From NCBI RefSeq assembly GCF_006385705.1, contig NZ_VFRQ01000005.1, positions 310,001-374,000 on the forward strand: DNA of 64,000 nt, written 5' to 3'. Source of the DNA: Pontibacter mangrovi (GTDB taxonomy: Bacteria; Bacteroidota; Bacteroidia; Cytophagales; Hymenobacteraceae). Of the stretch, positions 42,814 to 60,789 are shown one piece after another. The stretch's first letter is position 1; each line of letters opens with the position of its first letter. The notes under the pieces are model-generated. The model was given only the letters and a program-made list of their open reading frames with translations, made no database searches and was not told the DNA's origin. The position numbers and the translations under genes were made by a program.

Positions 42814-42825
42814 GGACAAAGGTCC
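42814..42825. promoter_or_regulatory. norB -7-like box within a GGACAAAGGTCC dyad
   Basis: On the minus strand GACCTTTG (complement of 42817-42824) is one mismatch from TAnnTTTG. It also forms the dyad GGAC-AAAG-GTCC, whose 10-bp core GACAAAGGTC recurs at 42871-42880. The leader to norB would be about 94 nt. Confidence 0.5.
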
Positions 42826-42847
42826 CCCTGTATGCCTTCCAGAAAAA

Positions 42848-42859
42848 TGATCTAAGTCA
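42848..42859 (-). promoter_or_regulatory. FNR/Crp-family site TGATCTAAGTCA (norB)
   Basis: The palindrome TGAY-N4-RTCA extends by one further pair to ATGA-N6-TCAT. Its centre (42853.5) is 36.5 bp from the end of the norB -7-like box, the same geometry as at 53635-53646 and 60546-60557. The position corresponds to class II activation. An FNR, DNR or NnrR-like regulator is inferred; its gene is not in the window. Confidence 0.65.
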
Positions 42860-42869
42860 TTAATAAAAG

Positions 42870-42881
42870 AGACAAAGGTCT
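42870..42881 (+). promoter_or_regulatory. Degenerate dyad AGACAAAGGTCT before the cytochrome c-nosZ operon
   Basis: The dyad is centred 36.5 bp from the end of the exact -7 box TACCTTTG at 42905-42912. The core GAC-N4-GTC matches TGAC-N4-GTCA except for the outermost base of each half-site. The stronger palindrome at 42848-42859 lies 22 bp (two turns) further upstream and could also act on this promoter. Confidence 0.45.
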
Positions 42882-42904
42882 TTTAATGCGGAAAATAACT
42901 AGCC

Positions 42905-42912
42905 TACCTTTG
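42905..42912 (+). promoter_or_regulatory. -7 box of the cytochrome c-nosZ operon
   Basis: TACCTTTG exactly matches TAnnTTTG. It lies about 50 bp before the cytochrome c ATG and has no obvious -33 element, in keeping with an activator-dependent promoter. Confidence 0.55.
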
Positions 42913-42963
42913 TTTTCGTAGACAATCACTTAATCTTTAGCACTATAATTAAATTCTACAAGT

Positions 42964-43500
42964 ATGAACAGAGAGAGTAAAAACCTGAGAGAAACGCTTT
43001 TAAGCATGTTTTTGAAGCCTCTGCAGTTTGGTGCAGTGGCCCTGATTTCCGGTACAATCCTATTTAGCTGCTCTTCGGGAGATAATGAGAACACCGCTGC
43101 CACGGAGCAGGAAGAGAGCGGCCTGGCGCAGCAGCAGACGGAGGCGCCTGTAGCTGATGAGGGCAAAGGCATTGGTCCTGTTAGCTCTGTGGAGGTGGGA
43201 GACGCAATTGATGAGACCCTTGCTGCCGAAGGTAAAAGCGTGTTTGAGTCCAAATGCTCTGCCTGCCACCAGCTAAGCGACCAGAAAATAGTTGGCCCCG
43301 GGCTGGCAGGTGTGACCGAGCGCCGCAAGCCGGAATGGATTATGAACATGATCATGAACCCGCAGGAGATGACCCAAAAGGACCCTACTGCCAAAAAACT
43401 ACTGGCTGAGCACCTTACCCAGATGACCAACCAGAACATTAACGAGTCGGATGCCAGAGCCTTGTTGGAGTATCTGAGACAGAACGACAAGAATAGCTAG
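42964..43500 (+). CDS. c-type cytochrome preceding nosZ
   Basis: This 178-aa protein has an N-terminal anchor with a lipobox-like ILFSC (about residue 37). An acidic low-complexity linker follows, then one class I cytochrome c domain with haem motif CSACH (about residues 97-101) and a distal Met region (MNMIMNPQEM, HLTQMTNQ). It lies 29 nt before nosZ and is likely the periplasmic electron donor to N2O reductase, a common arrangement in clade II nos clusters. It heads the operon behind the TACCTTTG promoter. Confidence 0.9.
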   Translation: MNRESKNLRETLLSMFLKPLQFGAVALISGTILFSCSSGDNENTAATEQEESGLAQQQTEAPVADEGKGIGPVSSVEVGDAIDETLAAEGKSVFESKCSACHQLSDQKIVGPGLAGVTERRKPEWIMNMIMNPQEMTQKDPTAKKLLAEHLTQMTNQNINESDARALLEYLRQNDKNS

Positions 43501-43529
43501 CAAACAACAAGCAAAACCCATAAATCATT

Positions 43530-45569
43530 ATGGAAACACTGATCAATAAGTTTAGGAAAATGGCACCCAAGGCCGCACTGCTGATGGCAGTGACGGCGGG
43601 TGCGGCCCTGCAAAGCTGTAACAAAATGGGCGGCGAGGGGGCAGCCACTGCCGAGGGCTTAGACACTGATGCGGCGTCTAAAGTATACGTGGCCCCAGGC
43701 AAGCACGATGAGTTGTACTCCTTCCTCTCCGGCGGTTTCAACGGACAGGTGTCGGTGTACGGCATTCCGTCGGGCAGGCTGCTGAAGATCATTCCTGTGT
43801 TCTCGCAATTCCCGGAGAATGGCTACGGCTACAACGAGGAAACCAAGGCGATGCTGAACACCTCGCATGGCTTTATCCCATGGGATGACCTGCACCACCC
43901 CAAACTGTCGCGCACGGATGGCATGGCCGACGGCCGCTGGCTGTTCGTGAACGGCAACAACACGCCGCGCGTGGCCCGCGTGGACCTAAAAACCTTTGAG
44001 ACAGTGGAGATTATGGAGATCCCTAACTCAGCCGGTAACCACTGCTCCCCGTACCCAACCAACAACAACGAGTATGTTATTGCCGGTACGCGCTTCTCGG
44101 TTCCGCTGGACATGGAGGGCAAGACTGCCGATGTGAGCATGAACGAGTATAAGGACAAGTTTAAAGGTTCGATCTCGTTTGTGAAAGTGGATAAGGAAAC
44201 AGGCGACATGGAGCTTGATTTCCAGGTGCTGGTGCCGGGCTTCGACTACGACCTGGCCAATGGCGGCAAAGGCCCATCTACGGACTGGGTATTCTTTACC
44301 ACCTATAACACCGAGCGAAGCAACACGCTGAAGGAGCTGGGCGCCTCTCAGAACGACAAGGACTACCTGGCTGCGATCAACTGGAAACTAGCCGCCAAGT
44401 ATGCCGCCGAGGGCAAAGCCCACGAGATGCCGGCCAATTACTACCACAACAAGATGGACCACGGCACTTTCCAGGCGAAATCTACTATAAAGAAAAAGGT
44501 GCGCTACCTGCTGCCTGAGGAGTGCCCTGGCATGATGTACCTGATCCCGGCGCCTAAGTCGCCGCACGGCATCGACGTGGACCCGACCGGCGAGTATATG
44601 GTGGTGAACGGCAAGCTGGCTTCATCGCTGCCTGTGTTCTCCTTCTCAAAAATGCAGCAGGCCATTAAAGACAAAGCCTTTGACGGTGAAGTGAGCGGCA
44701 TTCCGGTGTTCAAGTATGACGCTGTGCTGCAAGGCGAAGTGAAAGAGCCGGGCCTGGGCCCATTGCACACCGAGTTCGACGGCAAGGGCAACGCCTATTC
44801 TACGATGTTTGTGTCGTCTGAAGTGGTGAAGTGGAGCCTGAAAGACCTGCAGGTGAAAGACAGAATTCCGGTTTACTACTCACCTGGCCACCTGATGATT
44901 CCGGGCGGCGACACAGAGAAGCCGTATGGCAAGTACCTGGTAGTAATGAACAAGATCACAAAAGACCGCTTCCTGCCGACTGGCCCTGAACTGATGCACT
45001 CTGCGCAGCTCATCGACATCAGCGGCGATAAAATGAAGATGCTCCTCGACTTCCCGACCGTGGCCGAGCCACACTACGCCCAGGGTATAAAAGCCGACCT
45101 GGTGGCTGCCAACAGCGCCAAGTTCTATAAACTGGACGAGAACAAGCACCCGCAGGCGGTGAAGAACGAGAAAGACGTGAACGTAACCCGCAAAGGCAAC
45201 GTGGTAACCGTGAAAATGACGGCCATCCGAAGCCACTTAACCCCGGATAACATTGAAGGGGTGCAGGTTGGAGACACCGTGTACTTCCACGTGACCAACC
45301 TGGAGCAGGACTGGGACGTACCGCACGGCTTTGCCGTGATGGGCGCCAACAACGCCGAAACGCTGATCATGCCAGGTGCTACCCAAACCCTTAAGTGGGT
45401 GCCAAAACAAGAGGGAGTGTTCCCATTCTACTGTACTGACTTCTGCTCTGCCCTACACCAGGAAATGCAGGGATACGTCAGGGTTTCTCCGAAAGGATCT
45501 AAAGTGCCGGTCAAGTTCTCTACCGGAGAGCCAAAACCGGTACCACCCGCTACGGCAAGCGTAAACTAA
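43530..45569 (+). CDS. nosZ: Nitrous-oxide reductase, clade II (Sec-exported)
   Basis: This 679-aa copper enzyme reduces N2O to N2 in the periplasm. It lacks a twin-arginine signal; the leader AALLMAVTAGAALQSC is Sec-type and lipobox-like, which together with the neighbouring genes places it in clade II. The CuZ-site histidines lie in DDLHHPK, GNHCSPYP, SPHGIDVDP, GPLHTEFDG and EPHYAQG across the seven-bladed propeller. The C-terminal cupredoxin holds CuA: FYCTDFCSALHQEMQG (Cys, Cys, His, Met). The operon continues with a membrane protein and nosL, D, F and Y. No nosR or nosX is present. A 44-bp perfect palindrome follows the stop. Confidence 0.97.
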   Translation: METLINKFRKMAPKAALLMAVTAGAALQSCNKMGGEGAATAEGLDTDAASKVYVAPGKHDELYSFLSGGFNGQVSVYGIPSGRLLKIIPVFSQFPENGYGYNEETKAMLNTSHGFIPWDDLHHPKLSRTDGMADGRWLFVNGNNTPRVARVDLKTFETVEIMEIPNSAGNHCSPYPTNNNEYVIAGTRFSVPLDMEGKTADVSMNEYKDKFKGSISFVKVDKETGDMELDFQVLVPGFDYDLANGGKGPSTDWVFFTTYNTERSNTLKELGASQNDKDYLAAINWKLAAKYAAEGKAHEMPANYYHNKMDHGTFQAKSTIKKKVRYLLPEECPGMMYLIPAPKSPHGIDVDPTGEYMVVNGKLASSLPVFSFSKMQQAIKDKAFDGEVSGIPVFKYDAVLQGEVKEPGLGPLHTEFDGKGNAYSTMFVSSEVVKWSLKDLQVKDRIPVYYSPGHLMIPGGDTEKPYGKYLVVMNKITKDRFLPTGPELMHSAQLIDISGDKMKMLLDFPTVAEPHYAQGIKADLVAANSAKFYKLDENKHPQAVKNEKDVNVTRKGNVVTVKMTAIRSHLTPDNIEGVQVGDTVYFHVTNLEQDWDVPHGFAVMGANNAETLIMPGATQTLKWVPKQEGVFPFYCTDFCSALHQEMQGYVRVSPKGSKVPVKFSTGEPKPVPPATASVN

Positions 45570-45582
45570 CCCTAAGCCGGGC

Positions 45583-45626
45583 AAAACATAAGCGGAGGTT
45601 GCCCGGGCAACCTCCGCTTATGTTTT
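45583..45626. terminator. 44-bp perfect palindrome after nosZ
   Basis: Two 22-nt arms (45583-45604 and 45605-45626) are exact reverse complements with no spacer, beginning AAAACATAAGCGG and ending TTTT. A hairpin here would terminate part of the transcription. It would leave more NosZ message than message for the accessory genes beginning 20 nt later at 45646. Confidence 0.75.
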
Positions 45627-45645
45627 ATACTTTAATACTAAAAGG

Positions 45646-46239
45646 ATGAAAGCGAGTAGCAGAGTGCTGATGATTATGGCAGCGCTATCCCTAGGTTTGC
45701 TGTTCCTCTTCCCCATGTGGAAGATCTACCTTAAAGCCCCACAATACCCCGAAGGCCTGGAAATGCACATTTGGGTAAACAAAATTTCAGGAAGCTCCGA
45801 GAGCGTGCTCCAGAACTTCAATATCCTCAACCACTACATCGGGATGGAGCCGATCCATGCAGAGTCATTCGCAGAGTTGCGCATTATGCCCTACATCGTT
45901 ATCTTTTTTATGATAACCGGTGTCATTGTGGCCTTGGTGGGCATCCGAAAACTTATCCTGGCCTGGGCCTTGTTGCTGATGGTGGGCGGCGCTGTGGGTA
46001 TCACAGACTTTTACCTATGGCTCGTGCGGTTCGGCACGCACCTGAACCCCAACGCACCCATCAAAATACCGGGCATGACTTACATACCGCCGCTGCTTGG
46101 CAGCAAAGAGCTGCTTAACTTCGATGCGCTTTCGTTGCCGTCTACCGGTAGCCTGGGCATCCTGCTGGCTGTGGTGTTCTCGGGCCTTGCATTTTATGTG
46201 AGCCGCAAAAAGAAGATTAGCCAAAAAGTAACCGCGTAA
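45646..46239 (+). CDS. nos-cluster membrane protein
   Basis: This 197-aa protein has about four transmembrane helices (MIMAALSLGLLFLFPMW, MPYIVIFFMITGVIVAL, LILAWALLLMVGGAVG, LGILLAVVFSGLAFYV) and a periplasmic loop with HIWVNKISG and LQNFNILNHYIGM. Proteins of this kind sit between nosZ and nosL in many Bacteroidetes nos clusters. I know of no proven function; a role in copper delivery or electron transfer to NosZ is inferred from position only. It is 8 nt upstream of nosL. Confidence 0.8.
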   Translation: MKASSRVLMIMAALSLGLLFLFPMWKIYLKAPQYPEGLEMHIWVNKISGSSESVLQNFNILNHYIGMEPIHAESFAELRIMPYIVIFFMITGVIVALVGIRKLILAWALLLMVGGAVGITDFYLWLVRFGTHLNPNAPIKIPGMTYIPPLLGSKELLNFDALSLPSTGSLGILLAVVFSGLAFYVSRKKKISQKVTA

Positions 46240-46247
46240 AATATACT

Positions 46248-46712
46248 ATGATGAAGCTACTGAGGAGTTTAGTTAGCCTGGCGCTTATACTTGTGCTGCT
46301 GAGCGGATGCTCAGTGGAGCCTAAGCCCATACCTTACGGACAAGCAAACTGTGTGCACTGCAGCATGACGGTGTCCGACAGCAGGTATGGTGCTGAACTG
46401 GTAAACGACAAGGGCAAAGCTTACTTCTTCGACTCAGCAGAATGCCTGGCTGCTTATTTAAACGAGCAGCCGGGGCTGAGCCAGAAGGCGGCCTTTGTGC
46501 TGGTATCGGACTACACGAATCCCGAAAAACTGATAGAGGCAGAGCAGGCGTACTTTCTGCAGAGCCGCGAGCTGCCAAGCCCCATGGGCATGTTCCTGAC
46601 AGCGGTGGCAGACAAGGCCGCTGCCGGCCAACTGCAGCAGGAGTATGGTGGCCGCCTGCTTACCTGGAACCAGGTAAAAGAAGCTGTAAAGCAACATGAT
46701 AAACCAGAGTAA
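46248..46712 (+). CDS. nosL: NosL copper-binding lipoprotein
   Basis: This 154-aa protein has a lipoprotein signal (LVLLSGC) and the NosL copper motif CVHCSM (Cys-x-x-Cys-x-Met) near residue 36. It also has the conserved GKAYFFDSAECLAAYL segment and a second MGMFLTA methionine region. NosL delivers Cu(I) for NosZ metal-site assembly in the periplasm. It overlaps the nosD start by 17 nt, so the two are translationally coupled. Confidence 0.94.
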   Translation: MMKLLRSLVSLALILVLLSGCSVEPKPIPYGQANCVHCSMTVSDSRYGAELVNDKGKAYFFDSAECLAAYLNEQPGLSQKAAFVLVSDYTNPEKLIEAEQAYFLQSRELPSPMGMFLTAVADKAAAGQLQQEYGGRLLTWNQVKEAVKQHDKPE

Positions 46713-48021
46713 ACATATTTTTATACTTGCCGGCATACTTGTGCTGCTGCTTTTAAGCCAGAGTGGGTTAGCAGACACCATCAAGGTATGTAAGTCCTGC
46801 CCAATAACTTTGGTGAAGCAGGCAGTGCAAAAGGCTAGCCCCGGCGATACCGTGCTGGTGAGCAAAGGCGTGTACCGTGAGTCTGGCATAGAGATAACCA
46901 AGCCTCTGGCCCTGATCGGCGTGAACAACCCAGTGATAGACGGCAATTTTACCGGCCAGCTTATCACGGTTGTTGCTGATAACGTGACGGTACAAGGCTT
47001 TACGCTGAAAAACGTGGCCACCAGCTACCGCAAAGACGACGCCGCCATCCGGGCAAACGAGCAAACAAATGTTAAGGTACTGGATAACACCATCCTGAAC
47101 ACCTACTACGGCATTTACTTCCAGAACTCGAACAACATCGTGATCCGGAATAACATTGTGCGGGGCGAGAACGAGGGCAGAACCGAGTCGTCGTTGGGCA
47201 ACGCCATACATTTATACTATACCGACAACGTGGAGATTACCGGCAACAACCTGCAGGGCCACCGCGACGGCATCTACCTGGAAGTGGTGAAGAACAGCCG
47301 CGTGAACCACAACATCAGCCAGAACAACATGCGCTACGGCCTGCACTTCATGTTCTCGGACGGCAACACCTATACTTACAACACCTTCCGAAAAAACGGC
47401 GCGGGCGTGGCCGTGATGTATACCGTGAACGTGCAGATGGAGCACAACCTTTTTGAGGACAATTGGGGCGCAGCCTCCTATGGCCTTCTGCTGAAGGAGA
47501 TCCGCGACAGTGCCATCCGTAACAACGTGTTCCGGCGCAACTCCACGGCCATCCACATGGAGAGCTCCACACGCCTGGATATAGAAAACAACGATTTTGA
47601 GCGCAACGGCTGGGCGATAAAGGTGATGACCACCTGCCTGGACGATACCTTTCGGCTGAATAATTTTAGCGGTAACTCTTTTGACGTGAGTACCAACGGC
47701 ACCACGCAATCCAACCATTTCAGCCATAACTATTGGGAGAAGTATACCGGCTACGACTTGGACAAGGATGAGGTAGGCGATGTGCCGTACCGCCCTGTCA
47801 GCCTGTACTCGATGTTGGTAGAGCGCGTGCCGCCCTCTGTGATGTTTATGCGTAGCTTTATGGTAGACCTGCTGGATAACATGGAGAAGGTGTTGCCCAG
47901 CATTATACCGGAGCAATTGGTAGATGAACACCCGTTGATGAAGAAAATACACCATGATAACGATAGAGAACTTGTGCAAGTCTTACGGCAAACTGCAGGT
48001 GCTCCGCCACGTGAGCGTTGA
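46696..48021 (+). CDS. nosD: NosD periplasmic beta-helix maturation protein
   Basis: This 441-aa protein has a Sec signal (HIFILAGILVLLLLSQSGLA) followed by a right-handed parallel beta-helix with regular Asn-rich turns (NNIVIRNNIV, DNVEITGNNL, NSRVNHNISQNN). It ends in the NosD tail DEVGDVPYRPVSLYS. It works with the NosFY transporter in assembling the CuZ site of NosZ. The frame continues 68 nt into nosF, a longer overlap than usual, giving the C-terminal tail VLRQTAGAPPRER. Confidence 0.93.
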   Translation: MINQSKHIFILAGILVLLLLSQSGLADTIKVCKSCPITLVKQAVQKASPGDTVLVSKGVYRESGIEITKPLALIGVNNPVIDGNFTGQLITVVADNVTVQGFTLKNVATSYRKDDAAIRANEQTNVKVLDNTILNTYYGIYFQNSNNIVIRNNIVRGENEGRTESSLGNAIHLYYTDNVEITGNNLQGHRDGIYLEVVKNSRVNHNISQNNMRYGLHFMFSDGNTYTYNTFRKNGAGVAVMYTVNVQMEHNLFEDNWGAASYGLLLKEIRDSAIRNNVFRRNSTAIHMESSTRLDIENNDFERNGWAIKVMTTCLDDTFRLNNFSGNSFDVSTNGTTQSNHFSHNYWEKYTGYDLDKDEVGDVPYRPVSLYSMLVERVPPSVMFMRSFMVDLLDNMEKVLPSIIPEQLVDEHPLMKKIHHDNDRELVQVLRQTAGAPPRER

Positions 48022-48661
48022 GTTTAGCCGGGGCAATGTGATAGCCGTGATAGGCCCTAACGGGGCGGGAAAAACCACCTTGAGCAAAGCCATACTGGGT
48101 ATGGTGCTGCCCGATAGCGGCGATATCCGGATAGATGGCGAGAGCGTGCTTAAAAAGTATGCCTACCGCAGCCAGATCGGGTATATGCCCCAGATCGGGC
48201 AATACCCCGAGAACATGAAAATACGGCAGGTGCTGCAGATGATCCGCGACATACGGAAGGATGTGCAGGAGGTGGATGAGGAGCTGATCGGGCTGTATGG
48301 GCTAAAGGAGATGTATGAGAAGCGCATGGGAGCCCTGTCGGGGGGCACACGGCAGAAGGTGAGCGCTGCGCTGGCTTTCTTGTTTGACCCGCAGGTGCTG
48401 ATACTCGACGAGCCCACTGCCGGCCTGGACCCCATTGCCGCCGAAATCCTGAAGGGCAAGATCCTGAAGGAAAAGAAAAAAGGAAAGCTCATCATCATCA
48501 CTTCCCACATTATGAGCGAGATAGAGGAGGTGGCCGACGAGGTGCTTTGCATGGTAGACGGGCAGGTGAAGTTTTACGAGACCATCCCCGAACTGAAAGC
48601 GCAGACGCAGGAAAGCCGCCTGAGCCGCGCCGTGGCCAAAATCATGAACGAAGAAGCTTAA
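47954..48661 (+). CDS. nosF: NosF ABC transporter ATPase
   Basis: This 235-aa ATPase has Walker A GPNGAGKT at residues 34-41, signature LSGGTRQKV and Walker B VLILDEPTAGLDP. The start at 47954 (MITIENLCKSYG) fits the ABC N-terminal strand exactly, so the 68-nt overlap with nosD appears real. With NosY it forms the exporter that provides a sulfur species or energy for CuZ assembly. It is 3 nt upstream of nosY. Confidence 0.95.
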   Translation: MITIENLCKSYGKLQVLRHVSVEFSRGNVIAVIGPNGAGKTTLSKAILGMVLPDSGDIRIDGESVLKKYAYRSQIGYMPQIGQYPENMKIRQVLQMIRDIRKDVQEVDEELIGLYGLKEMYEKRMGALSGGTRQKVSAALAFLFDPQVLILDEPTAGLDPIAAEILKGKILKEKKKGKLIIITSHIMSEIEEVADEVLCMVDGQVKFYETIPELKAQTQESRLSRAVAKIMNEEA

Positions 48662-48664
48662 GCC

Positions 48665-49432
48665 ATGAACAAGATCATTAAATACGTGCTGCTGGACATC
48701 GTAAAGAGCAAGATCGTCATTGCCTATACGCTGTTCCTGCTGCTGCTCTCCATCGGGCTGTTTACCCTGGGCGGCAGCGCCGACAAAGGTATCCTGAGCC
48801 TGCTGAACCTGGTGCTGCTCACTGTGCCGCTCATCAGCATCGTGTTCGCCACCACGCACTTTTACAACTCCTATGAGTTTATGGAGCTGCTGGTGGCACA
48901 GCCTATCAACCGCAAGAAGATATTCCTGAGCGAGTACCTGGGGGTGGCCTTTTCGCTGTCCGGGGCTTTTATACTTGGCGTGGGTGTGCCGGTGCTGCTG
49001 TTTGGGGGCGGCCTAACGGGCCTGTACCTGTTGCTGACGGGCGTGTTTATTACCTTCATTTTTGTGGGTATGGCCTTCCTGGCCTCCGTCAGCACCCGCG
49101 ACAAGGCCAAAGGCATTGGCATTGCGCTGCTGCTGTGGTTCTATTTCGCGCTGATCTATGATGGCCTGGTGCTGTTCATCCTCTACGTCTTTGCCGACTA
49201 TCCGCTGGAGTATGCCACCCTGGCCATGACGGCCCTGAACCCGATAGACCTGGGCCGCATCATCGTGCTGCTGAACCTGGACGTGTCGGCGCTGATGGGG
49301 TATACCGGCGCCTTGTACAAGAGCATTTTCGGGAGTCTGTTGGGCGTTGGGGCGGCCTTTGGCCTGCTGCTGCTTTGGGTGCTGTTGCCGGTACTAAGCT
49401 CCAGAAGGATCTTTTCGAGGAGGGATCTGTAG
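48665..49432 (+). CDS. nosY: NosY ABC transporter permease
   Basis: This 255-aa membrane protein has about six transmembrane helices, and its N-terminal MNKIIKYVLLDIVKSKIVIAY amphipathic entry is typical of ABC-2/NosY permeases. The conserved cytoplasmic FYNSYEFMELLVAQPINRKKIFLSEY segment is the coupling region, and ALNPIDLGRI is a family motif. It is the last gene of the nos operon; no strong terminator follows immediately, but the downstream region is rich in hairpins. Confidence 0.94.
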   Translation: MNKIIKYVLLDIVKSKIVIAYTLFLLLLSIGLFTLGGSADKGILSLLNLVLLTVPLISIVFATTHFYNSYEFMELLVAQPINRKKIFLSEYLGVAFSLSGAFILGVGVPVLLFGGGLTGLYLLLTGVFITFIFVGMAFLASVSTRDKAKGIGIALLLWFYFALIYDGLVLFILYVFADYPLEYATLAMTALNPIDLGRIIVLLNLDVSALMGYTGALYKSIFGSLLGVGAAFGLLLLWVLLPVLSSRRIFSRRDL

Positions 49433-49633
49433 TATAAGTATAAACCCTGCTGCGGCAGGCGAAAGATTGTGTTTTGTGATTTTTGGCGCGTGGGGCAAAT
49501 GCTCTGCGCGCTTTTTGTTTCTGCGGTACCGGGGCCAATCACTTTAGCCAAGGAGGGAGTCTGTAACCGCTTCTCACAAAGTATAAATTCCTTAGTTGGT
49601 GGCTATAGCGCGACCTGTTCCTACAAGTATGAA

Positions 49634-49798
49634 CCCACCCCTAAGAGCTGCGCTCGCTAGCTCAAAACTCTCGTTTTGGCTAGTCCAGAGGAGGGGAATT
49701 CACCTCACCCCAGCCCTCCCCCCAAAACAGGGGAGGGAGCTTTCTGGAGCACCTAATCCAACCACCCCTGCCCCTCCTTATCCAAGGAGGGGAACTCC
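49634..49798. repeat. Cluster of three GC-rich palindromic intergenic repeats (copies 2a-2c)
   Basis: Unit a begins CCCACCCCTAA (49635) and ends GGAGGGGAATT (49690-49700), with an insert containing AGCTCAAAAC and GTTTTGGCT. Unit b is a tight hairpin, CCCTCCCC with GGGGAGGG (about 49714-49738). Unit c begins CCACCCCTGCCCCTCC (from about 49761) and ends GGAGGGGAACTCC (49786-49798). The ends match those of copies at 36843, 57037 and 61753. Confidence 0.75.
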
Positions 49799-49862
49799 GT
49801 TCAAGCTCTGTCAGCGGTGGCTATCGAAATGTTTCCCAGTCTTTCCGTTGAGCGCCTTCTAG

Positions 49863-49910
49863 ATTTCCGGTGCCGCCTTGGCGGCATTGCGACGCAGGAG
49901 CAAAGGAAAT
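49863..49910. other. Nested hairpin element, possible structured RNA
   Basis: Outer arms ATTTCC (49863-49868) and GGAAAT (49905-49910) enclose the perfect palindrome TGCCGCCTTGGCGGCA (49871-49886). Further downstream another short stem AGCCC/GGGCT follows. It could be a decayed mobile element end or a small structured RNA; strand is not determined. Confidence 0.35.
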
Positions 49911-50278
49911 GTAGACAGCGCGATGCGGGAAGACGAGCCCTCGCGGGCTTGGAGCGAGCCAAGTATGAGGTGCAACGATAGGTATGTAAGACTGAGGATG
50001 AACAGTAGCTAGAAAGGATAGCTTGCCTCTAGTTGCAGAAAGCGGCGGCTATGGAAGTCTAAAAGCATAAGCGGACGCTTGCGCTAGTCAGAGGCTAGGG
50101 AAAGTATAAATGTGCAGCTAGAGCGGCGGCAGGTGCTAATTCCGAGGTTAGATTAACTTTTACCTAGAATAATACATCTTTTGCCCCTGTAAATCAGTAT
50201 GTAAGGGTTAGTGGCAATTCCGCACAATGCTGCTCCATATTAAGTTGATTTTGTTCTACCTTTTAATATGATGAGCCT

Positions 50279-52105: not shown

Positions 52106-52124
52106 GCCGTCTATATCTAAAAGC

Positions 52125-52168
52125 AAAAAAGGTCCGGTAGCTTGCGCAGAAGCTACCGGACCTTTTTT
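52125..52168. terminator. Bidirectional terminator, 19-bp stem
   Basis: Arms at 52125-52143 and 52150-52168 (AAAAAAGGTCCGGTAGCTT and its complement) enclose the loop GCGCAG. It separates convergent ctaD (+) and the proline dehydrogenase gene (-), whose stop begins 2 nt further on. Confidence 0.9.
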
Positions 52169-52169
52169 A

Positions 52170-53369: not shown

Positions 53370-53564
53370 AGGTATCAGCTTTAAAAGGTTATTAAATCCC
53401 AGACTTTGGCTACCCCTGTGTTCGTAAACCTTCGGTTTAAGTTACCCCTCACGTAAAGAGTAATTTGTATTATTTGTAGTTTATTTGCTTGTTGCAGCCA
53501 TTGTTGTTGCCGTAAGGTAGAGATGTTAGCTAAGGCAAGCGATGCGTTTGGTCAGTGTGCAAAA

Positions 53565-53576
53565 TGATTTTTGTCA
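53565..53576. promoter_or_regulatory. FNR/Crp-family palindrome TGATTTTTGTCA
   Basis: It matches TGAY-N4-RTCA and extends to ATGA-N6-TCAT. No -7 box lies 36.5 bp away on either strand, so it may be an accessory upstream site for the gene at 53698 or serve the divergent proline dehydrogenase gene. Confidence 0.45.
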
Positions 53577-53634
53577 TGTTGCAAGTATAAAAGGAGGATA
53601 ACTGATGAAGAATTCGGAAAACATGCTGACGCAG

Positions 53635-53646
53635 TGATGAATATCA
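53635..53646 (+). promoter_or_regulatory. FNR/Crp-family site TGATGAATATCA
   Basis: This is a full FNR core (TGAT-N4-ATCA). Its centre (53640.5) is 36.5 bp from the end of the exact -7 box TAAGTTTG at 53670-53677, a class II position. No -33 element is visible, as expected for an activated promoter. Confidence 0.7.
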
Positions 53647-53669
53647 TTTTATGGATGGGGCGCTTCTGC

Positions 53670-53677
53670 TAAGTTTG
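53670..53677 (+). promoter_or_regulatory. -7 box of the thioredoxin-like gene
   Basis: TAAGTTTG exactly matches TAnnTTTG and lies 20 bp before the ATG at 53698, giving a short leader. Confidence 0.6.
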
Positions 53678-53697
53678 TAGAGACAAATGATAATCTC

Positions 53698-54318
53698 ATG
53701 AAGCATACAGATAAAGCATCCGAAGCTCTGGTAAACCCTATGACCTACCAGGAGTTTAAAGCCCTTTCAGAGGAGTTGGTGGCGCAAAGCAAAACCACCG
53801 GCGAGGAACAGAGCGAAGAGAAAATTAACTTTACCAAGCTGAACCAACAGCGTATGAAGCGCGTGGAAAAGCAGTTTGCACTGCAGCCAGCCTTAAAGGC
53901 CCTTTTGGACCAGCGACCGCAGCACTGGCAGTGGCTGGTGCTGGTAGAGGCCTGGTGTGGCGACGGAGCGCAGCTATTGCCTGCCATTGCCGCCATTGCC
54001 GAAGCAGCCGACCTGGAGCTGACCGTGCTGCTGCGCGACGAAAATCCAGCCCTGATGGATACCTGCCTTACCAACGGCAGCCGCGCCATACCTAAGCTCA
54101 TCTGCCTGGATGGAGAGACCGGCGAACGCGTGTTTGCCTGGGGGCCGCGGCCAACTGCTATACAGGCGCAGGTAAAGCAGCTGAAAGCCGAGCAACCCGA
54201 CATCAGCCACGCCGATTTGGTGCAGCAGGTACAACTCTGGTACGCCAAAGACCGCAGCGCCTCTTTGCAGCAGGACCTGGTGCAGGTGCTGCAGGAAGCG
54301 CTGGCGCTGGAAGTATAA
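53698..54318 (+). CDS. Thioredoxin-fold protein with a single-cysteine active site
   Basis: This 206-aa protein has no signal peptide, so it is probably cytoplasmic. The thioredoxin-like core spans about residues 75-175. In WLVLVEAWCGDGAQ the usual CxxC is reduced to CGDG with one Cys, and the cis-Pro region is AIPKLICLDG. A monothiol site suggests glutathionylation, peroxide/NO-related thiol chemistry or a non-redox role rather than a general disulfide reductase. Its promoter carries an FNR-type site with the same geometry as norB and ric. It is followed 45 nt later by a polytopic membrane protein gene, likely in one operon. Confidence 0.8.
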   Translation: MKHTDKASEALVNPMTYQEFKALSEELVAQSKTTGEEQSEEKINFTKLNQQRMKRVEKQFALQPALKALLDQRPQHWQWLVLVEAWCGDGAQLLPAIAAIAEAADLELTVLLRDENPALMDTCLTNGSRAIPKLICLDGETGERVFAWGPRPTAIQAQVKQLKAEQPDISHADLVQQVQLWYAKDRSASLQQDLVQVLQEALALEV

Positions 54319-54363
54319 AACATAATTGCCTTTTAAGCGCATAAAATATAAGTATGATGGCGC

Positions 54364-55734
54364 ATGCCTTTTGGGGCTAAACTCTTACCCATGCAGCGTA
54401 ACACAGATGCACATATTACCCCAGCCCCCTGGCGGTTGCCGCTGCTCTCGGCTTTGCTGAGTTTGGCGGTGATCGCTTTGCTGGGCCTGCTGTTGCGCTG
54501 GACGTTTGTATCGCCTGTGGCTTGGGTAAACTATAAATTTCTGTTGCATGCCCACTCGCATGTGGCCTTGCTGGGCTGGCTGTATCCGGTGTTGTTCATC
54601 GCCCTGCTGCACGCGTACCTGCCGCCGGAGATACGCAACAAAAAAGTATACTTCCGGCAGTTCTGGCTGGCGCAGGCGGCGGTGCTGGGCATGCTGCTCA
54701 GTTTCCCGGTGCAGGGCTACGCGGCGGTTTCCATTACTTTTTCCACGGTGCATATCCTGCTGAGCTACTGGTTTATACTTCGTTTTCTGAAAGATGCCCG
54801 CGCGCAACCTATAAACAGCAAAAAGCACAGCCTGTCGTTCCGATTCGTAAAGGCGGCGCTTTTCTTTTTGGCCTTGTCCTCGCTGGGGCCGTGGGCGATG
54901 GGGCCGATCATGGCCACCGGGCACAGTGGCACAGCACTATACTATAACGCCATCTATTTTTACCTGCACTTTCTGTACAACGGCTGGTTTACGTTTGCGG
55001 TGCTGGGGCTGCTGTTCTGGCTACTCGAAAAGTATAGTATCAGCTTTAACCGGAAGCATGGCCTGCTGTTTTTCAGGTTGATGTTCTGGGCCTGTTTGCC
55101 GGCTTATTTGTTGTCGGTGCTGTGGGTAAAGCCTGATGCTATAGTATACATGCTGGGTGGCGCGGCTGCTTTAACGCAGGTGCTGGCACTGGCGCTGTTG
55201 CTTTGGCAGCTCTGGCCGATCAGAAAGCAGGTGCGTACGCTGTTCAGCGGGTGGGGCAGCGGCCTGCTTATACTTTCGGCGCTGGCCTTTATACTTAAAA
55301 CGCTGATGCAGTTCTCTACCGCCTTCCCCTACATGGCCAATTTGGCGTACAACATCCGGCATTTTATCATCGGTTACCTGCACCTGGTGCTCATCGGGTT
55401 TGTGAGCTTTTTTATACTTGCCTGGCTGGCGCAGCAGGGCTGGCTAAGCTTGCGGCAGCGTTTTAGCCGGTGCGGCATCAGCCTTTTTATACTTGCCTTT
55501 GTGGGCAGCGAGGCGCTGCTTTTCGGGCAGGGACTGTTTTACTGGCTTGGCTTAGGTGCCATACCAGGCTATAACGAGCTGCTGTTTGGCATAAGCGTGT
55601 TTCTGCCAGTCGGCATCCTGCTGTTTTTCGCTGCCCAAATCTGGCACAGGCCTACTGATGCCAAAGCTTGCCCCGAAGCCTTGCAAGGCATCGGGGAGGG
55701 CCTTAAAAGCTACGCTGCCGCGGAAAAGCACTAG
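54364..55734 (+). CDS. Polytopic membrane protein, heme-copper-oxidase-like/NnrS-like
   Basis: This 456-aa protein has about 12 hydrophobic helices; alternative starts are 54364 and 54391. Helix 2 is His-rich (KFLLHAHSHVALLGWLYP), and later helices carry further His (MATGHSGTALYYNAIYFYLHFLYNGWF, NIRHFIIGYLHLVLIGF). This pattern resembles small heme-copper-oxidase-subunit-I-like and NnrS-type proteins found with denitrification genes. Heme binding is inferred. The gene follows the FNR-controlled thioredoxin-like gene by 45 nt. It contains seven copies of AAGTATA/TATACTT within 1371 bp, several as Ile-Leu pairs written ATA-CTT. Confidence 0.75.
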   Translation: MPFGAKLLPMQRNTDAHITPAPWRLPLLSALLSLAVIALLGLLLRWTFVSPVAWVNYKFLLHAHSHVALLGWLYPVLFIALLHAYLPPEIRNKKVYFRQFWLAQAAVLGMLLSFPVQGYAAVSITFSTVHILLSYWFILRFLKDARAQPINSKKHSLSFRFVKAALFFLALSSLGPWAMGPIMATGHSGTALYYNAIYFYLHFLYNGWFTFAVLGLLFWLLEKYSISFNRKHGLLFFRLMFWACLPAYLLSVLWVKPDAIVYMLGGAAALTQVLALALLLWQLWPIRKQVRTLFSGWGSGLLILSALAFILKTLMQFSTAFPYMANLAYNIRHFIIGYLHLVLIGFVSFFILAWLAQQGWLSLRQRFSRCGISLFILAFVGSEALLFGQGLFYWLGLGAIPGYNELLFGISVFLPVGILLFFAAQIWHRPTDAKACPEALQGIGEGLKSYAAAEKH

Positions 55735-55748
55735 CCTTTATACTTGGT

Positions 55749-56084
55749 TTACAGATGGCTTTGCAGGTATTTTACCAGCGATGAGTTGGAGCCGTCAGCA
55801 TACATCCCGAAGCCGTTCACCACAATACCCTTCGCCTGGTGCTTGTCCGACGAAATGCCAAACACGATCATTTCATCTCCCGGGTCTGAGTCGCCCTCAA
55901 AGCGGTATACTTCATCTATCCTGAACTCATCCGGCGATAGGCTGACGGAGGTTTTCTGGCATACCAGGCAATCTTCCTCAGCAAACAACGCAAAATCTAT
56001 ACTATAACCGCGCTTTTTCAAGCCTTGTACAGCTTCGCTAACGGTGTCATAGGTGTGGTCGGTGTTCTTTTTTTCGTTTTTCAT
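55749..56084 (-). CDS. Small conserved Bacteroidetes protein (often mis-named PRPP synthetase-like)
   Basis: This 111-aa protein starts at Met (complement of 56082-56084; a longer frame begins at 56111). Conserved blocks are YDTVSEAVQGLKKRGYSIDF, DCLVCQ, LSPDEFRIDEVYRFEGDSDPGDE and KGIVVNGFGMYAD. I recall similar short proteins in many Bacteroidetes, annotated as phosphoribosylpyrophosphate synthetase without a PRPP motif; I see none here either. The function is unknown. It is last in a minus-strand operon behind trHb and a membrane protein, and its stop is 14 nt from the convergent gene. Confidence 0.75.
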   Translation of the reverse strand: MKNEKKNTDHTYDTVSEAVQGLKKRGYSIDFALFAEEDCLVCQKTSVSLSPDEFRIDEVYRFEGDSDPGDEMIVFGISSDKHQAKGIVVNGFGMYADGSNSSLVKYLQSHL

Positions 56085-56133
56085 GGCAGTATAAATTTTT
56101 TTCTGATGCAATAAATACCCGATGCTGCCTTTG

Positions 56134-56553
56134 CTACAGCAGCTGCATGCCTAAGCTGATCAGGAGAATGACCTTGACCAACTCTGCGCCGACGTAGTAA
56201 AAGTGCAGAACCGATTTTGAGACCTGAACGCCAGCCATCACTGACTCGGCCCGCTTGTCCATGGCTGGCAGCAGCCAAACCGTTTGCAGCAGCAGGATAA
56301 GTATGGAAGCGAAAAGCAAAAAAGCCGGGCTGATTCCGAACCCGTTGCCTAGCAATAGCAGCGCTAAAGCAACCAAGGCAAAGGCCCATTCCACTTTGTT
56401 CAGGCCCCTAAATACCAAGCGGCCAATGCTCAAGCCAACATGTAGCGTAACGCCGGGTGCCCGGAACTTCAGCCAGGCCTCCATAAAACTGATGGCGCTC
56501 ATGAAGCCTGCCCAAACAAAGGTGACGAGGACGAGATAGGAAGTATAGTTCAT
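56134..56553 (-). CDS. Four-helix membrane protein of unknown function
   Basis: This 139-aa protein has four predicted transmembrane helices (YLVLVTFVWAGFMSAISFM, WAFALVALALLLLGNG, FLLFASILILLLQTVWLLP, VGAELVKVILLISLGMQLL). Loop motifs are MEAWLKFRAPGV and LDKRAESVMAG-like. No named family is certain. It lies 12 nt after the truncated hemoglobin gene in the same operon, so it may take part in NO or O2 metabolism at the membrane. Confidence 0.75.
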   Translation of the reverse strand: MNYTSYLVLVTFVWAGFMSAISFMEAWLKFRAPGVTLHVGLSIGRLVFRGLNKVEWAFALVALALLLLGNGFGISPAFLLFASILILLLQTVWLLPAMDKRAESVMAGVQVSKSVLHFYYVGAELVKVILLISLGMQLL

Positions 56554-56565
56554 GGCTGGTGATGT

Positions 56566-56961
56566 TTACAGAATCGTTCTGCCGCTGTTCTTTTTGTAGT
56601 ACTCAATCTTGCTGGAAAACATGTCGGCCATTTTCCGCGCCCGCCACTTGGCCTCTTCGGCTTTAGCGCCGGTAAATAGTTCGTCTATGGTTGTAAAGAA
56701 GATTGAGATCCACCTGTCAAAATGCTTAGCGCCAACGGGCAAGGTAATATGTTTTGTGCCCGGGCTGCCCTGGTAGGTAAGTTCCTCCAGCAGCACCGTT
56801 TGCCAAAAGCGGTACATAATATCGAGGTGCCGTGGCCAGCGGTCCTGTATCCGTTCGTCAAAGATCGGCCCCAGCAGCTCATCCGCCCGCACGCGGGTAT
56901 AGAAGGTGTCTACCAGTAACTTGATGTCGTCTAAAGTAAGGATGTCTTGTTTTGGAGTCAT
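56566..56961 (-). CDS. Group III truncated hemoglobin
   Basis: This 131-aa globin has the trHb3 pattern: LLVDTFYTRVRADELLGPIF with the early Phe-Tyr at helix B, and HLDIMYRFWQTVLL. The proximal His lies in PVGAKHFDRWISIFF, and the tail is AEEAKWRARKMADMFSSKI. Such globins bind O2 or NO and are linked to NO detoxification or oxygen sensing. It is first in a three-gene minus-strand operon. No FNR-type palindrome was found upstream; instead the upstream region is a nested repeat. Confidence 0.93.
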   Translation of the reverse strand: MTPKQDILTLDDIKLLVDTFYTRVRADELLGPIFDERIQDRWPRHLDIMYRFWQTVLLEELTYQGSPGTKHITLPVGAKHFDRWISIFFTTIDELFTGAKAEEAKWRARKMADMFSSKIEYYKKNSGRTIL

Positions 56962-56981
56962 GTTGTAAAGTTAAGGCCTGG

Positions 56982-57115
56982 ATCAGGATTTACAGGATTA
57001 GAAAAGGATAGACAGGATTTTGTTCAAAGGTGTAAACCCACCCCTAACACCTACGAGGAGGGGAATTGTTGGAAGATCGATCCTTTTCATACTTCTAAAT
57101 CCTGCAAATCCTGAT
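56982..57115. repeat. Nested repeat: ATCAGGATT inverted arms around a GC-rich palindrome (copy 3)
   Basis: Outer arms ATCAGGATTTACAGGATT (56982-56999) and AATCCTGCAAATCCTGAT (57098-57115) are inverted with one mismatch. A shortened third half-copy, GACAGGATTTTG, is at 57011-57022. Inside lies the short GC-rich element CCCACCCCTAACACC ... GAGGAGGGGAATT (57037-57067), so one repeat family seems inserted into another. It fills the space between divergently placed trHb upstream DNA and the nrdJ 3' end. Confidence 0.8.
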
Positions 57116-57160
57116 TCAGAATAAATCATTTTAATCAGTTAAATCACCTTCATCACCGGT

Positions 57161-60100
57161 TTAGCTACACCCCAAACTATTGCCACAGTTCAGGCATTTG
57201 TAGCAAGTGCCGGAGCGGATGGTGATGTGGCCGCAGACGTTGCAGATCGGGGCGTCGCCCATCATGCTGGCCAGCACCTGTTGCGTTTGCTCCATCAACA
57301 CGGTGCGGCTCTGGGAGACTACTTTGTAGCTCTTGCCGTTGCTTGCTGGGGCTGCCGCAGGCTCCGCTACAGGTGGCGCAGGCAAGGGAACACTTTGACT
57401 AACCTCTGGCTCCTCCGGCTTCACATGCACCAGGTCGGTGCGGTTCAGGTACTCATAGGCCAGCAAGCGGAACACGTAATCAAACACCGAAGTGGCCGAT
57501 TTAATATTGGGGTGCTCCACGCGGCCGGCTGGCTCGAAGCGGGTAAAGGTAAAGCGGTTCACAAACTCCTCCAGCGGCACGCCATACTGCAGCCCCAGCG
57601 ACACCGAAATGGCAAAGCAATTGAGCATGGACCGGAACGAGGCGCCCTCCTTATACATATCTATAAACAACTCGCCCAACGACCCGTCCGGGTACTCGCC
57701 GGTGCGGATGTAAACCGTGTGGCCGTCGATCTTAGCCTTCTGCGTGAAACCGTTGCGCTTGTCGGGTAGTTTGCGGCGCTCCACCATGCGCACCAGTTCC
57801 TGTCTAAAACCCTCGTTCGCCGAGTCGGCAAGTATGGATTGAGCAGCTTTCAGGATTTGCTCGGCGTTATACTTTTCGTCGGCGGTGGCGGCAGCAGTAG
57901 TTTCCTCAGGCTCGTCCTTCTCTTCGGATTGGGTGCTTTTGGAAGTGAGCGGCTGCGAAAGTTTGCTGCCGTCGCGGTAAATAGAACAGGCTTTCAACCC
58001 CAGTTCCCACGACAGTTCATAGCATCGCGCCACGTCCTCCACGCTCACCTCGTTGGGCAGGTTAATTGTTTTAGAGATAGCCCCGGAAATAAACGGCTGC
58101 ACCGCCGCCATCATGTAAATATGTCCTTCGGCTTTGATGAACCGGGTGCCCTTGCTGCCGCAGCGGTTGGCGCAGTCGAATACCGGGTAGTGCTCCGGTT
58201 TTAAGTATGGCGCGCCTTCCACGGTCATGGTGCCGCACACGTAGCTGTTGGCCTCATCAATCTGGCGTGCCGTAAAGCCCAGCGCCTGCAGCAAATTAAA
58301 ATCAGGGCTGTTATACTTTGTAGCTGTGTAGCCCAATCTTTCCAGGCAATCGGTGCCCAAGGTATAAGCGCTGAACAGCGAGCTTACGTCATAAGCCTTC
58401 GGCAGGGCCGCTTCCAGTTGTGCGATCTCTTGTGGTAGAAAACCTTTTTGCAGCAATGTTTCCGGGTTGATGTGCGGCGCACCTTCAAAAGTGCCGTAGC
58501 CTTTGGCATAGTTCACGATCGCCTCGCGCTCCTGCAAAGTATAACCCAGCTTCTGCAGCGCCACCGGTATAGACTGGTTGATGATCTTGAAATAGCCGCC
58601 TCCGGATAGCTTTTTATACTTTACCAGCGCATAGTCCGGCTCCACGCCAGTGGTATCGCAGTCCATCAGCAAGCCAATGGTTCCGGTTGGCGCGATTACA
58701 GAAGCCTGCGCGTTGCGGTAGCCATGCATTTCGCCTTGTGCCAGCGCCTTATCCCATGCATCTTGTGCGGCTTTCAACAGTGGTTTCGGGCACAGCTCCT
58801 GATCCAGCCCGATAGGTTTTATACTTAGGCTTTCATACTTACCGGCCTCGTTGTAGGTGGCGTGGCGGTGGTTGCGGATCACGCGCAACATACTTACGCG
58901 GTTCGGCTCATACTTGGCAAAGGCACCCAGCGTAGCGGCCATCTCGGCAGAGGTTTTATAAGCGATGCCCGTCATGAGCGAGGTGATGCCGGCGGCCATA
59001 GCACGGGCAGCGTCGCTGTCGTAGGGCAGGCCCTGCACCATCAGCAAAGCACCCAGGTTGGCATAGCCCAGGCCTATCGTTCGGTAATCGTAAGAGCGTT
59101 GCGCCACAATTTCGGAAGGGAACTGCGCCATCAAAACGGATATCTCCAGCACCACCGTCCAGAGGCGGCAAGCGTGCTCAAAGGCAGCCACATCAAACTC
59201 CTGCTTCTCCGCATCAAAAAAGCGCATCAGGTTGAGCGAGGCCAGGTTGCAGGCGGTGTTGTCCAGGAACATGTACTCGGAACAAGGGTTAGACCCTCGT
59301 ATCGGACCTTCGGCAGGGGAGGTGTGCCACTCGTTTATAGTGGTGTCGAACTGCACGCCGGGGTCGGCGCAGGCCCAAGCGGCCTCGGCTACCTGCTGCC
59401 ATAGTTTGCGGGCAGGTATGGATTTGAGGACGCTGCCGTCGGTGCGGGCGGTCAGGTGCCAATCTCCGTCAGCATGCAAAGCGTCAAAAAAGTTGTTCGG
59501 CACGCGCACCGAGTTGTTGGAGTTCTGTCCCGAAACGGTCTGGTAGGCTTCGCCCTCAAAATCGCCAGCGTAACCGGCCGCAATCAGCGCCGCCACCTTT
59601 TTCTCCTCGTCCTTTTTCCAGTTGATGAACTCTTCAATCTCCGGGTGGTCCAGGTCGAGGCTTACCATTTTGGCTGCCCGGCGCGTAGTGCCGCCTGATT
59701 TAATGGCCCCAGCCGCGCGGTCGCTCACCTTCAGGAAAGACATGAGACCTGAAGAGCTGCCGCCCCCCGAGAGCGGCTCGTTCCGGCCTCGGATGTTGGA
59801 GAAGTTGGTGCCCACGCCAGAGCCATACTTAAAGATGCGCGCCTCCTGCACCAGTAGATCCATAATTCCGCCTTTCTTGGCCAGGTCGTCCTCCACCGAA
59901 AGTATGAAACAGGCATGCGGCTGCGGGTGCTCAAACGCCGTGTCTGACTCGCGCAGCTCACCGGTGCCGGGATCCACGTAAAAGTGCCCCTGCGACTTTC
60001 CTTTTATCCCATAAGATTCATACAGGCCCGTGTTGAACCACTGCGGCGAGTTGGGCGCGGCATACTGGCCCAGCAACATATACACCAGCTCCTCATAAAA

Positions 60101-60448
60101 TACCTGCGCATCAGCCTCCTTTTTAAAATAGCCATACTTCAGGCCCCATTTCTGCCAGCAGTTCACCAGTCGGTGCACCACCTGCTTTACCGATTTCTCG
60201 GAGCCGGTGCTGCCGTCGGGTTGCGGCACGCCGGCGCGGCGCAGGTATTTCTGGGCCAATATGTCGGTGGCGATCTGCGACCATTGCGCCGGCACCTCTA
60301 CGTCCTGCAGCTCGGCCACCACGTCGCCGGTGGGGTTGCGGATGGTGGAGGAGCGGAGCTCGTAGCGGAACTGGTCGTAAGCGCTTTGCCCGGCTTGGGT
60401 AAAGTGGCGGGAGAAGGAGAGGCCGGGGCGTGTGTCAGGTTTTTTCAT
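57161..60448 (-). CDS. nrdJ: Vitamin B12-dependent (class II) ribonucleotide reductase
   Basis: This 1095-aa cytoplasmic enzyme makes deoxyribonucleotides using adenosylcobalamin, so it works with or without O2. The catalytic barrel includes [18 protein letters not shown]-type segments, the active-site NPCSE with [22 protein letters not shown] and [24 protein letters not shown]-type region lies near residues 900-1000. The C-terminus has a cysteine zinc-ribbon/redox tail ([21 protein letters not shown]). The length is normal for NrdJ. The neighbouring NO and low-oxygen genes fit use of an oxygen-independent enzyme. The FNR-type palindrome at 60546 appears to serve the divergent ric gene instead. 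Confidence 0.95.
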
Positions 60449-60789
60449 AAAAGGTTAGCGGTTAAAGGATGAGGGGATATATCTATATAGTTGCAAGCTA
60501 TGTTTTCCTCAAAAGCCGGGGGATGAGCAAGGTCACCGGCTGAAATGACATCGGTCATTTTCATGGCCTATACTTTAAATTATACTTGCATATAAGATTT
60601 AAGTAACTGGAAACCATGTTTATATAAGTTGTTTAGCGAGGTTTTCAGGAGGATGTATTTACAACTATAACCTGGGATAAAGATAGGACGTAAAATAAAA
60701 TAATAAAATACCTTTAACTCTTTTGTTTTAAAATTACCTCACATACCTTTACCCCGGAGATTGATTAAAAGACCAAATAATTATCTAAA
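60449..60789. other. Divergent regulatory region between nrdJ and ric
   Basis: There is no gene in these 341 bp. It contains the palindrome at 60543-60560, the TATACTTG box at 60581-60588 and a second -7-like TACCTTTA at 60744-60751. The latter is about 40 bp before the ric ATG and could give an additional start. Poly-A/T tracts fill 60680-60740. The nrdJ promoter is not obvious. Confidence 0.6.
60546..60557 (+). promoter_or_regulatory. FNR/Crp-family site TGACATCGGTCA (ric)
   Basis: The core lies within an 18-bp perfect dyad AAATGAC-ATCG-GTCATTT (60543-60560). Its centre (60551.5) is 36.5 bp from the end of TATACTTG (60581-60588), one mismatch from TAnnTTTG. The geometry is identical to the norB and thioredoxin-like promoters. 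The leader to ric would be about 195 nt. Confidence 0.65.

Follow-up and report, generated by a model that had tools for sequence, protein, structure and literature searches.

A predicted class II Crp/Fnr-type promoter architecture upstream of norB, nosZ and ric in Pontibacter mangrovi

Introduction

Promoters of the Bacteroidota show little -33 signal, and the action of activators on them has been poorly charted. How such promoters may be switched on is a question raised by a stretch of 64,000 nt of the 4.88-Mb Pontibacter mangrovi genome (G000:C31:310001-374000, here called the window), which carries genes for nitric oxide (NO) reduction (norB), nitrous oxide (N2O) reduction (nosZ) and iron-sulfur cluster repair (ric) and for a thioredoxin-like protein. 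A previous sequence-only reading had noted that a dyad, typically TGAY-N4-RTCA, precedes these genes at a fixed distance from the -7 box, and had assigned all of them to a single NO- or O2-sensing activator. Does this spacing stand out from chance, which promoter geometry does it suggest, and which proteins are likely to use it? The answer that we favor, with a probability of roughly 0.7 and on the basis of sequence comparisons, is that these promoters are of the class II Crp/Fnr type and are read by the Bacteroidetes primary sigma factor, that a hybrid response regulator is the likeliest activator of the T-flanked sites, and that norB and nosZ share a double operator.

Results

One spacing at four promoters

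The norB dyad TGATCTAAGTCA (42848..42859, centre 42853.5) lies 36.5 bp from the end of the -7 box GACCTTTG on the minus strand (42817..42824), and the gene downstream (40410..42716, minus strand) encodes a nitric oxide reductase subunit B of 768 aa with a cytochrome c-like domain (Pfam PF22085 and PF00115). On the plus strand, the same distance separates the dyad TGATGAATATCA (53635..53646) from the box TAAGTTTG (53670..53677) of the thioredoxin-like gene, a member of the Thioredoxin_9 family (53698..54318, plus strand, PF14595), and the dyad TGACATCGGTCA (60546..60557) from the box TATACTTG (60581..60588) of ric, which encodes an iron-sulfur cluster repair di-iron protein (60790..61749, plus strand, TIGR03652). 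The coordinates and spacings of these three promoters and of a fourth were re-read, and the distance of 36.5 bp turned out to be exact in all of them. The fourth dyad, AGACAAAGGTCT (AGAC-AAAG-GTCT, 42870..42881, centre 42875.5), has the same distance to the plus-strand box TACCTTTG (42905..42912), which precedes a c-type cytochrome of 178 aa (42964..43500, plus strand, NCBIfam heme-domain matches below the cut-off) and nosZ, encoding a Sec-dependent nitrous-oxide reductase (43530..45569, plus strand, TIGR04246). The two-fold TGA-N6-TCA site is present at norB, the thioredoxin-like gene and ric, whereas the nosZ variant has AGA instead.

The spacing in the window, the genome, the family and the phylum

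The window contains 7 exact dyads compared with 2.21 expected, and none of 100 shuffles reached 7; three of the seven lie within long open frames and have no box at the respective slot. When 154 box-like sites were scanned at 21 spacings under relaxed conditions, 3 exact dyads were found at 36.5 bp and none at the other 20 spacings. The nosZ dyad was also recovered at 36.5 bp, with two mismatches to the exact dyad.

For the P. mangrovi genome, a pattern of the dyad, N{19,29} and TTG gave 109 matches, of which 100 were listed. Among those listed, 20 of the 47 TTTG-ended matches had a spacing of 36.5 bp, while ten other spacings had 2.7 matches each on average. With the full box TANNTTTG and 31 spacings, 9 of 16 matches were found at 36.5 bp. 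The base A of the box was not demanded by the pattern in 21 of the 23 P. mangrovi sites and was still present in 17 of these 21. In 60 genomes of the family, 74 of the 150 matches listed were at 36.5 bp and 11 at 37.5 bp, while the mean at each of 20 other spacings was 3.8. A phylum sample of 90 genomes yielded 150 listed matches, from which 13 rows of P. mangrovi itself were removed. Of the remaining 137, 61 were at 36.5 bp and 17 at 37.5 bp, with a mean of 7.6 at ten other spacings; they were contributed by 15 genomes that are grouped within the same order or class, and it is for these, rather than for every branch of the phylum, that the rule is documented. The proposal that the spacing exceeds chance genome-wide was thus borne out by peaks in all three samples. 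In one relative (G116), 37.5 bp is nearly as frequent as 36.5 bp (6 versus 7 of 15 rows), as if another paralogue or a longer spacer were in use.

Position relative to the transcription start

CRP and FNR sites at class II promoters are centred at -41.5. In the mapped promoters of Flavobacterium psychrophilum, the sigma-A box TAnnTTTG is located at -12 to -5, according to the available part of PMC9723704, and because the dyad centre is 36.5 bp away from the box end, it would be placed at -41.5. At this position (by the start sites mapped in F. psychrophilum) the dyad borders directly on the -33 region, the expected place of a -33 TTTG. Together with the spacing peaks in three samples and the norB, nosZ and thioredoxin-like footprints in relatives, the position derived from the mapped box strongly supports the predicted class II Crp/Fnr geometry of the dyad-box promoters, in line with the earlier proposal.

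Footprints in relatives

The window NorB protein is 85-93% identical to the NorB proteins of 16 Pontibacter records and 86% identical to that of one Rufibacter. Eighty norB loci were fetched, and 78 had enough upstream sequence. Eleven sites were recovered by the search within 450 bp upstream, and nine more among 12 loci that were searched whole, so that the dyad with TTTG at 36.5 bp is present in 20 of 78 loci. These comprise 15 of the 16 Pontibacter records, a Rufibacter, Adhaeribacter aerolatus, a Cesiribacter and two Fulvivirga; Pontibacter, Fulvivirga and Cesiribacter belong to the Cytophagales. The spacers vary, and the dyad, the box and their distance are kept. In eight of the nine whole-searched positives (L072-L076, L082, L083, L137), the box is separated from norB by a frame of about 300 codons. 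No such site was found within 450 bp of norB in the remaining loci, Bacteroidales included, nor any site for norB in the loci of Rudanella and Adhaeribacter rhizoryzae, which were searched whole.

For nosZ, the variant AGAY-N4-RTCT was found 36.5 bp from a TA..TTTG box in 14 of 17 relatives with a cytochrome upstream of nosZ; the 14 belong to Pontibacter and Cesiribacter. The spacing described for this promoter was confirmed, but the label "degenerate" has to be replaced by that of a conserved variant. The variant with TANNTTTG at 36.5 bp occurs in 11 of 15 genomes of the genus, once in each and twice in G038, and it is located about 14 to 20 kb from ric in the seven own-genus genomes in which ric was also located.

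Thirty loci with a thioredoxin-like gene were fetched. The dyad and box at 36.5 bp were present in all nine with at least 56% identity (P. mangrovi included) and in none of the 21 with less than 50% identity. P. mangrovi has a more distant paralogue of this gene at G000:C32, and the 21 loci elsewhere that lack the operator are of similarly low identity. A second dyad, TGATTTTTGTCA (53565..53576), lies in the intergenic region 70 bp upstream of the thioredoxin-like dyad and lacks a box at the slot; L171-L175 likewise have an additional dyad, 59-70 bp upstream.

Double operators

A distance of 22.0 bp separates the norB dyad from that of nosZ. Relative to norB, the TGAY dyad occupies -41.5 and the AGAY dyad -63.5; for nosZ, the arrangement is reversed. 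Because the distance is exactly 22 bp, the two dyads form a back-to-back double operator common to both genes. In all 14 relatives with the nosZ variant an exact TGAY dyad is located 22 bp upstream of the AGAY dyad. Conversely, an AGAY dyad with at most one mismatch is found 22 bp upstream of the norB dyad at 16 of 21 norB sites (P. mangrovi included), and at these 21 sites none was present at any other offset from 13 to 59. Seven relatives (L073-L076, L080, L082, L137) have the exact double operator in two copies, one at norB and one at nosZ.

The arrangement is not confined to this gene pair. Upstream of ric, an imperfect dyad with one mismatch, TGAGCAAGGTCA (60524..60535), lies 22 bp from the ric dyad, at -63.5, and a second dyad at this offset is exact in five relatives, two of which have a proximal dyad with one mismatch. 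For 20 P. mangrovi sites (three were left out), a second TGAY-like dyad was counted five times at 22 bp, once each at 70 and 80 bp, and never at any of the remaining offsets between 13 and 119. When 395 genomes were searched for pairs of promoters that face outward over two TGAY dyads with an inner gap of 0-28, 8 places in 8 genomes were retrieved, compared with 0 for a reversed-pattern control. The gap was 10 (22 bp) in four cases, 21-23 (33-35 bp) in three, two of them from one genus, and 28 in one; 22 and 33-35 bp correspond to about two and three helical turns. One of the four 22-bp places is the ccoI gene of P. mangrovi with a divergent promoter (G000:C1:170830-170925, L265), where two dyads 22 bp apart follow the norB-nosZ plan. 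On each strand, a TTTG box lies 36.5 bp from a perfect dyad, TGACCTAGGTCA (G000:C1:568848-568859, L052); a credible gene is present only on the plus side, and the minus-strand partner was rejected.

Further genes with the spacing

In P. mangrovi, 36.5-bp sites also precede ccoNO (NF011053), ccoG (TIGR02745), ctaA (PF02628), hemA (TIGR01035), a ccoI-like metal ATPase (TIGR01525, below cut-off), a bacterial globin (PF01152), TrhO (NF001133), a universal stress protein (PF00582), an OprD-like porin (PF03573) and a 123-aa frame without a family match. At a sulfur cluster they accompany two beta-lactamase-fold/rhodanese proteins, a TauE exporter and a frame that was named rhodanese-like by eye. The recovery of heme genes, one of the checks suggested with the sequence-only reading, was borne out. 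The description of the targets as NO-related turned out to be too narrow in view of the cbb3, heme, globin, TrhO, stress protein and sulfur genes. The globin gene at C12:55712 has the site, whereas by eye no dyad with a box was found upstream of a globin-like frame in the window (56566-56961).

Several candidate sites were not accepted. The site at C23:420345, considered for ccmC, lies inside a same-strand frame of 230 codons read as ccmB-like; nearly identical copies of it in relatives resemble conserved coding sequence and were left out of the CTG count given below. The sites at C30:197828 and C31:196542 have no frame within 500 bp downstream and are likely due to chance. A further site, at C33:168580, precedes a 164-aa frame and may or may not be a target.

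Candidate regulators

A Crp protein is encoded inside the sulfur cluster (C1:570428-571075). Its recognition helix, REVISR, is present in 19 of 19 orthologues fetched and agrees with the R180-G rule in the available part of PMC1274295. All 19 orthologues have an RTCAC-flanked, TTTG-ended 36.5-bp site at most 1.4 kb downstream on the same strand. The second candidate (C1:629258-630319) combines receiver, cNMP-binding and Crp helix-turn-helix (HTH) domains (PF00072, PF00027, PF13545) and adjoins a receiver-histidine kinase; by its domains it is a receiver-CRP hybrid response regulator, for which phosphorylation is predicted. The phospho-acceptor Asp motif was present in 13 of 13 cases. In regions chosen for holding the hybrid, the kinase adjoins it in 12 of 12 and hemA has a 36.5-bp site in all 11 in which hemA was found.

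The third candidate (C1:172231-172938) is FNR-like. E. coli FNR has three N-terminal cysteines and a fourth near position 122 (E. coli numbering). Among homologues of the P. mangrovi protein, a CxxC-X10-C motif is visible in the 23 inspected and a fourth-cysteine pattern in 19 of these, but the spacing of the third cysteine is unlike that of E. coli, and the NCBIfam Fnr model gives 96 bits at a cut-off of 228. The protein is accordingly called FNR-like rather than Fnr.

The flanks of the sites follow different regulators. Among 31 fully listed genomes, considering TANNTTTG boxes only, with author-set cut-offs and shared ancestry uncorrected, 16 of the 19 that encode the sulfur-cluster Crp (E<1e-30) have CTG-flanked sites, versus 0 of the 12 that do not, and T-flanked sites were seen in 21 of the 24 with a hybrid or FNR-like match (E<1e-38) versus 2 of 7 without one. 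In G003 and G041, where none of the three regulators has a strong match, 36.5-bp sites are absent. Because CTG- and T-flanked sites follow different Crp/Fnr paralogues, more than one activator appears to be at work, and one regulator for all sites, as proposed by the sequence-only reading, was rejected. A gas-sensing activator is not supported either, as the protein most likely to act on the NO genes is a kinase-linked hybrid, for which direct gas sensing is not apparent. Family genomes, e.g., G042, G054 and G006, repeatedly show yet another flank at 36.5 bp, RTCAAGG or RTCAAAAGAA. This third class occurs in G054 and G006 without a strong hybrid or FNR match and may mark another Crp/Fnr paralogue.

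Weighing of alternatives

Several points, besides the limits of the 31-genome comparison, weigh against the class II promoters with the hybrid as activator. The activator was picked by inference among three proteins above the Crp HTH cut-off and two weaker Crp-like frames. G016 and G054 are below the hybrid/FNR cut-off and yet have a T-flanked site each, and G019, G050 and G059 are above it and have none. The norB and ric boxes (GACCTTTG and TATACTTG) deviate from TAnnTTTG. The architecture is missing from 58 norB loci, most of which were searched to 450 bp upstream only, and a nosZ operator was found neither in three less closely related metagenome-assembled genomes that have the cytochrome (L106, L127, L139) nor upstream of nosZ in L258. 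The ric promoter is weakly conserved, with an exact dyad and a strong box at 36.5 bp in 6 of 19 orthologues (P. mangrovi included); among the others, one has a weaker box and two have one dyad mismatch, while in the remainder a dyad either lies at a different distance or is absent. Off-consensus boxes and the two mismatches of the nosZ dyad would also suit the view that the spacing in the window is a chance pick from many weak dyads and boxes, particularly because the examples had been selected by the earlier reading. However, the peaks were obtained with a pattern set in advance and in genomes outside the view of that reading, and the footprints are kept in relatives, so that we regard chance as refuted for all practical purposes. 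The dyads might also be repressor operators, at which a Crp/Fnr-like or an unrelated dimer blocks sigma binding. As the dyad abuts the -33 region, a steric block can be envisaged, but repressor sites are usually tolerant in position, and the dominance of one spacing in three nested samples is what a polymerase contact would predict. Repression is therefore improbable.

A more serious competitor concerns the identity of the activator. The T-flanked regulon could be run by the FNR-like protein, whose CxxC-X10-C motif and fourth cysteine might hold an iron-sulfur cluster that O2 or NO would remove, in the manner of E. coli FNR. The protein adjoins the cbb3/ccoI sites, its N-terminal cysteines are visible in the 23 homologues inspected and a VVCF(V/I)P-type cysteine in 19 of them, and it matches FNR structures (best 1.1e-21), albeit behind an unspecified Crp/Fnr regulator (2gau, 1.5e-28). 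Yet G001, G002, G007, G012 and G022 keep the ric or thioredoxin-like architecture although their best match is only of the hybrid type, and the same is true for G023, with a weak ric box, and for G028, with norB, provided that locus L078 comes from this genome. In addition, G050 and G059 have a strong FNR-like match and no T-flanked TANNTTTG site. The base before TGA is A in 8, C in 4, G in 9 and T in 2 of the 23 P. mangrovi sites, which does not fit the TTGA of the FNR/DNR box (TTGAT-N4-ATCAA). We consider control by the FNR-like protein unlikely, though clearly less so than repression, and prefer the hybrid.

Discussion

The following mechanism is proposed. A Crp/Fnr dimer on the -41.5 dyad would touch RNA polymerase and replace weak -33 recognition. 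At the T-flanked sites, norB, the thioredoxin-like gene and ric among them, the hybrid C1:629258-630319, presumably phosphorylated through the neighboring receiver-kinase, would bind and activate the NO, nitrous oxide, cbb3 and heme genes. The FNR-like protein may contribute an O2 or NO input where it is present, and the sulfur genes with RTCACTG sites would be activated by the third paralogue, C1:570428-571075. Each dyad of the norB-nosZ region would be the class II site for one gene and the -63.5 site for the other, and cooperative binding would link NO reduction to N2O reduction. A more far-reaching version is tentative and, in our estimate, somewhat short of an even chance. It holds that one -41.5 Crp/Fnr code operates on Bacteroidota TAnnTTTG promoters, that its denitrification, heme and cbb3 part in Hymenobacteraceae runs via a phosphorelay hybrid, that norB is co-fired with nosZ, and ccoI with its divergent promoter, from back-to-back operators whose two dyads are two helical turns apart, and that a lower affinity of the AGAY half might order the induction of the NO and N2O reductases.

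The TGA-N6-TCA core and the -41.5 centre deduced from the mapped -7 box resemble the class II CRP/FNR promoters of Proteobacteria. The differences are the TAnnTTTG -7 box in place of a -10 hexamer, the A or G that mostly precedes TGA, and the 22-bp double operators. Denitrifying Proteobacteria have DNR/FNR regulons with nor and nos targets and an FNR-like dyad with a 4-bp centre, but in the available part of PMC1274295 the DNR motif is CTTGATnnnnATCAAG, and the T at its outer position is rare in P. mangrovi; moreover, the favored regulator here bears a receiver domain. Crp/Fnr-family control of NO-response genes is found in the same phylum with HcpR and HcpR2 of Bacteroides and Porphyromonas, and the available parts of PMC1274295 and PMC12750200 predict regulons that contain only hcp in most Bacteroides species. 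The HcpR2 motif GTAACnnnnGTTAC (GTAAC-N4-GTTAC) is not the motif found here; the window sites read TGAY or AGAY, and GTAAC half-sites were not encountered. Rhizobial FixL/FxkR/FixK low-oxygen cascades (PMC7888657) likewise tie a sensor kinase to Crp/Fnr-family control of cbb3 oxidase, but in P. mangrovi a single polypeptide unites the receiver with the CRP domains. For Flavobacteriales and Saprospiraceae, a MalR matrix has been used to predict Crp/Fnr targets, and no promoter spacing is given in the available part of PMC8510549. In our searches of the open-access full-text literature we found no statement about the spacing, the double operator or the role of the hybrid. The mechanism itself is known; what is described here is its use in a new promoter setting, together with an uncommon double operator and, likely, a two-component switch. 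A fixed -41.5 rule would be a testable code for Crp/Fnr control in Bacteroidota, from which regulons can be predicted, and it puts forward a protein that may control N2O reduction in bacteria that carry the Sec-dependent nosZ.

Other features of the window

A one-mismatch match in the window (62836-62878) falls within a frame at 62367-63179. The thioredoxin-like gene is followed by a gene for a multi-spanning membrane protein with an HAHSH motif (54364-55734), which may share its operon.

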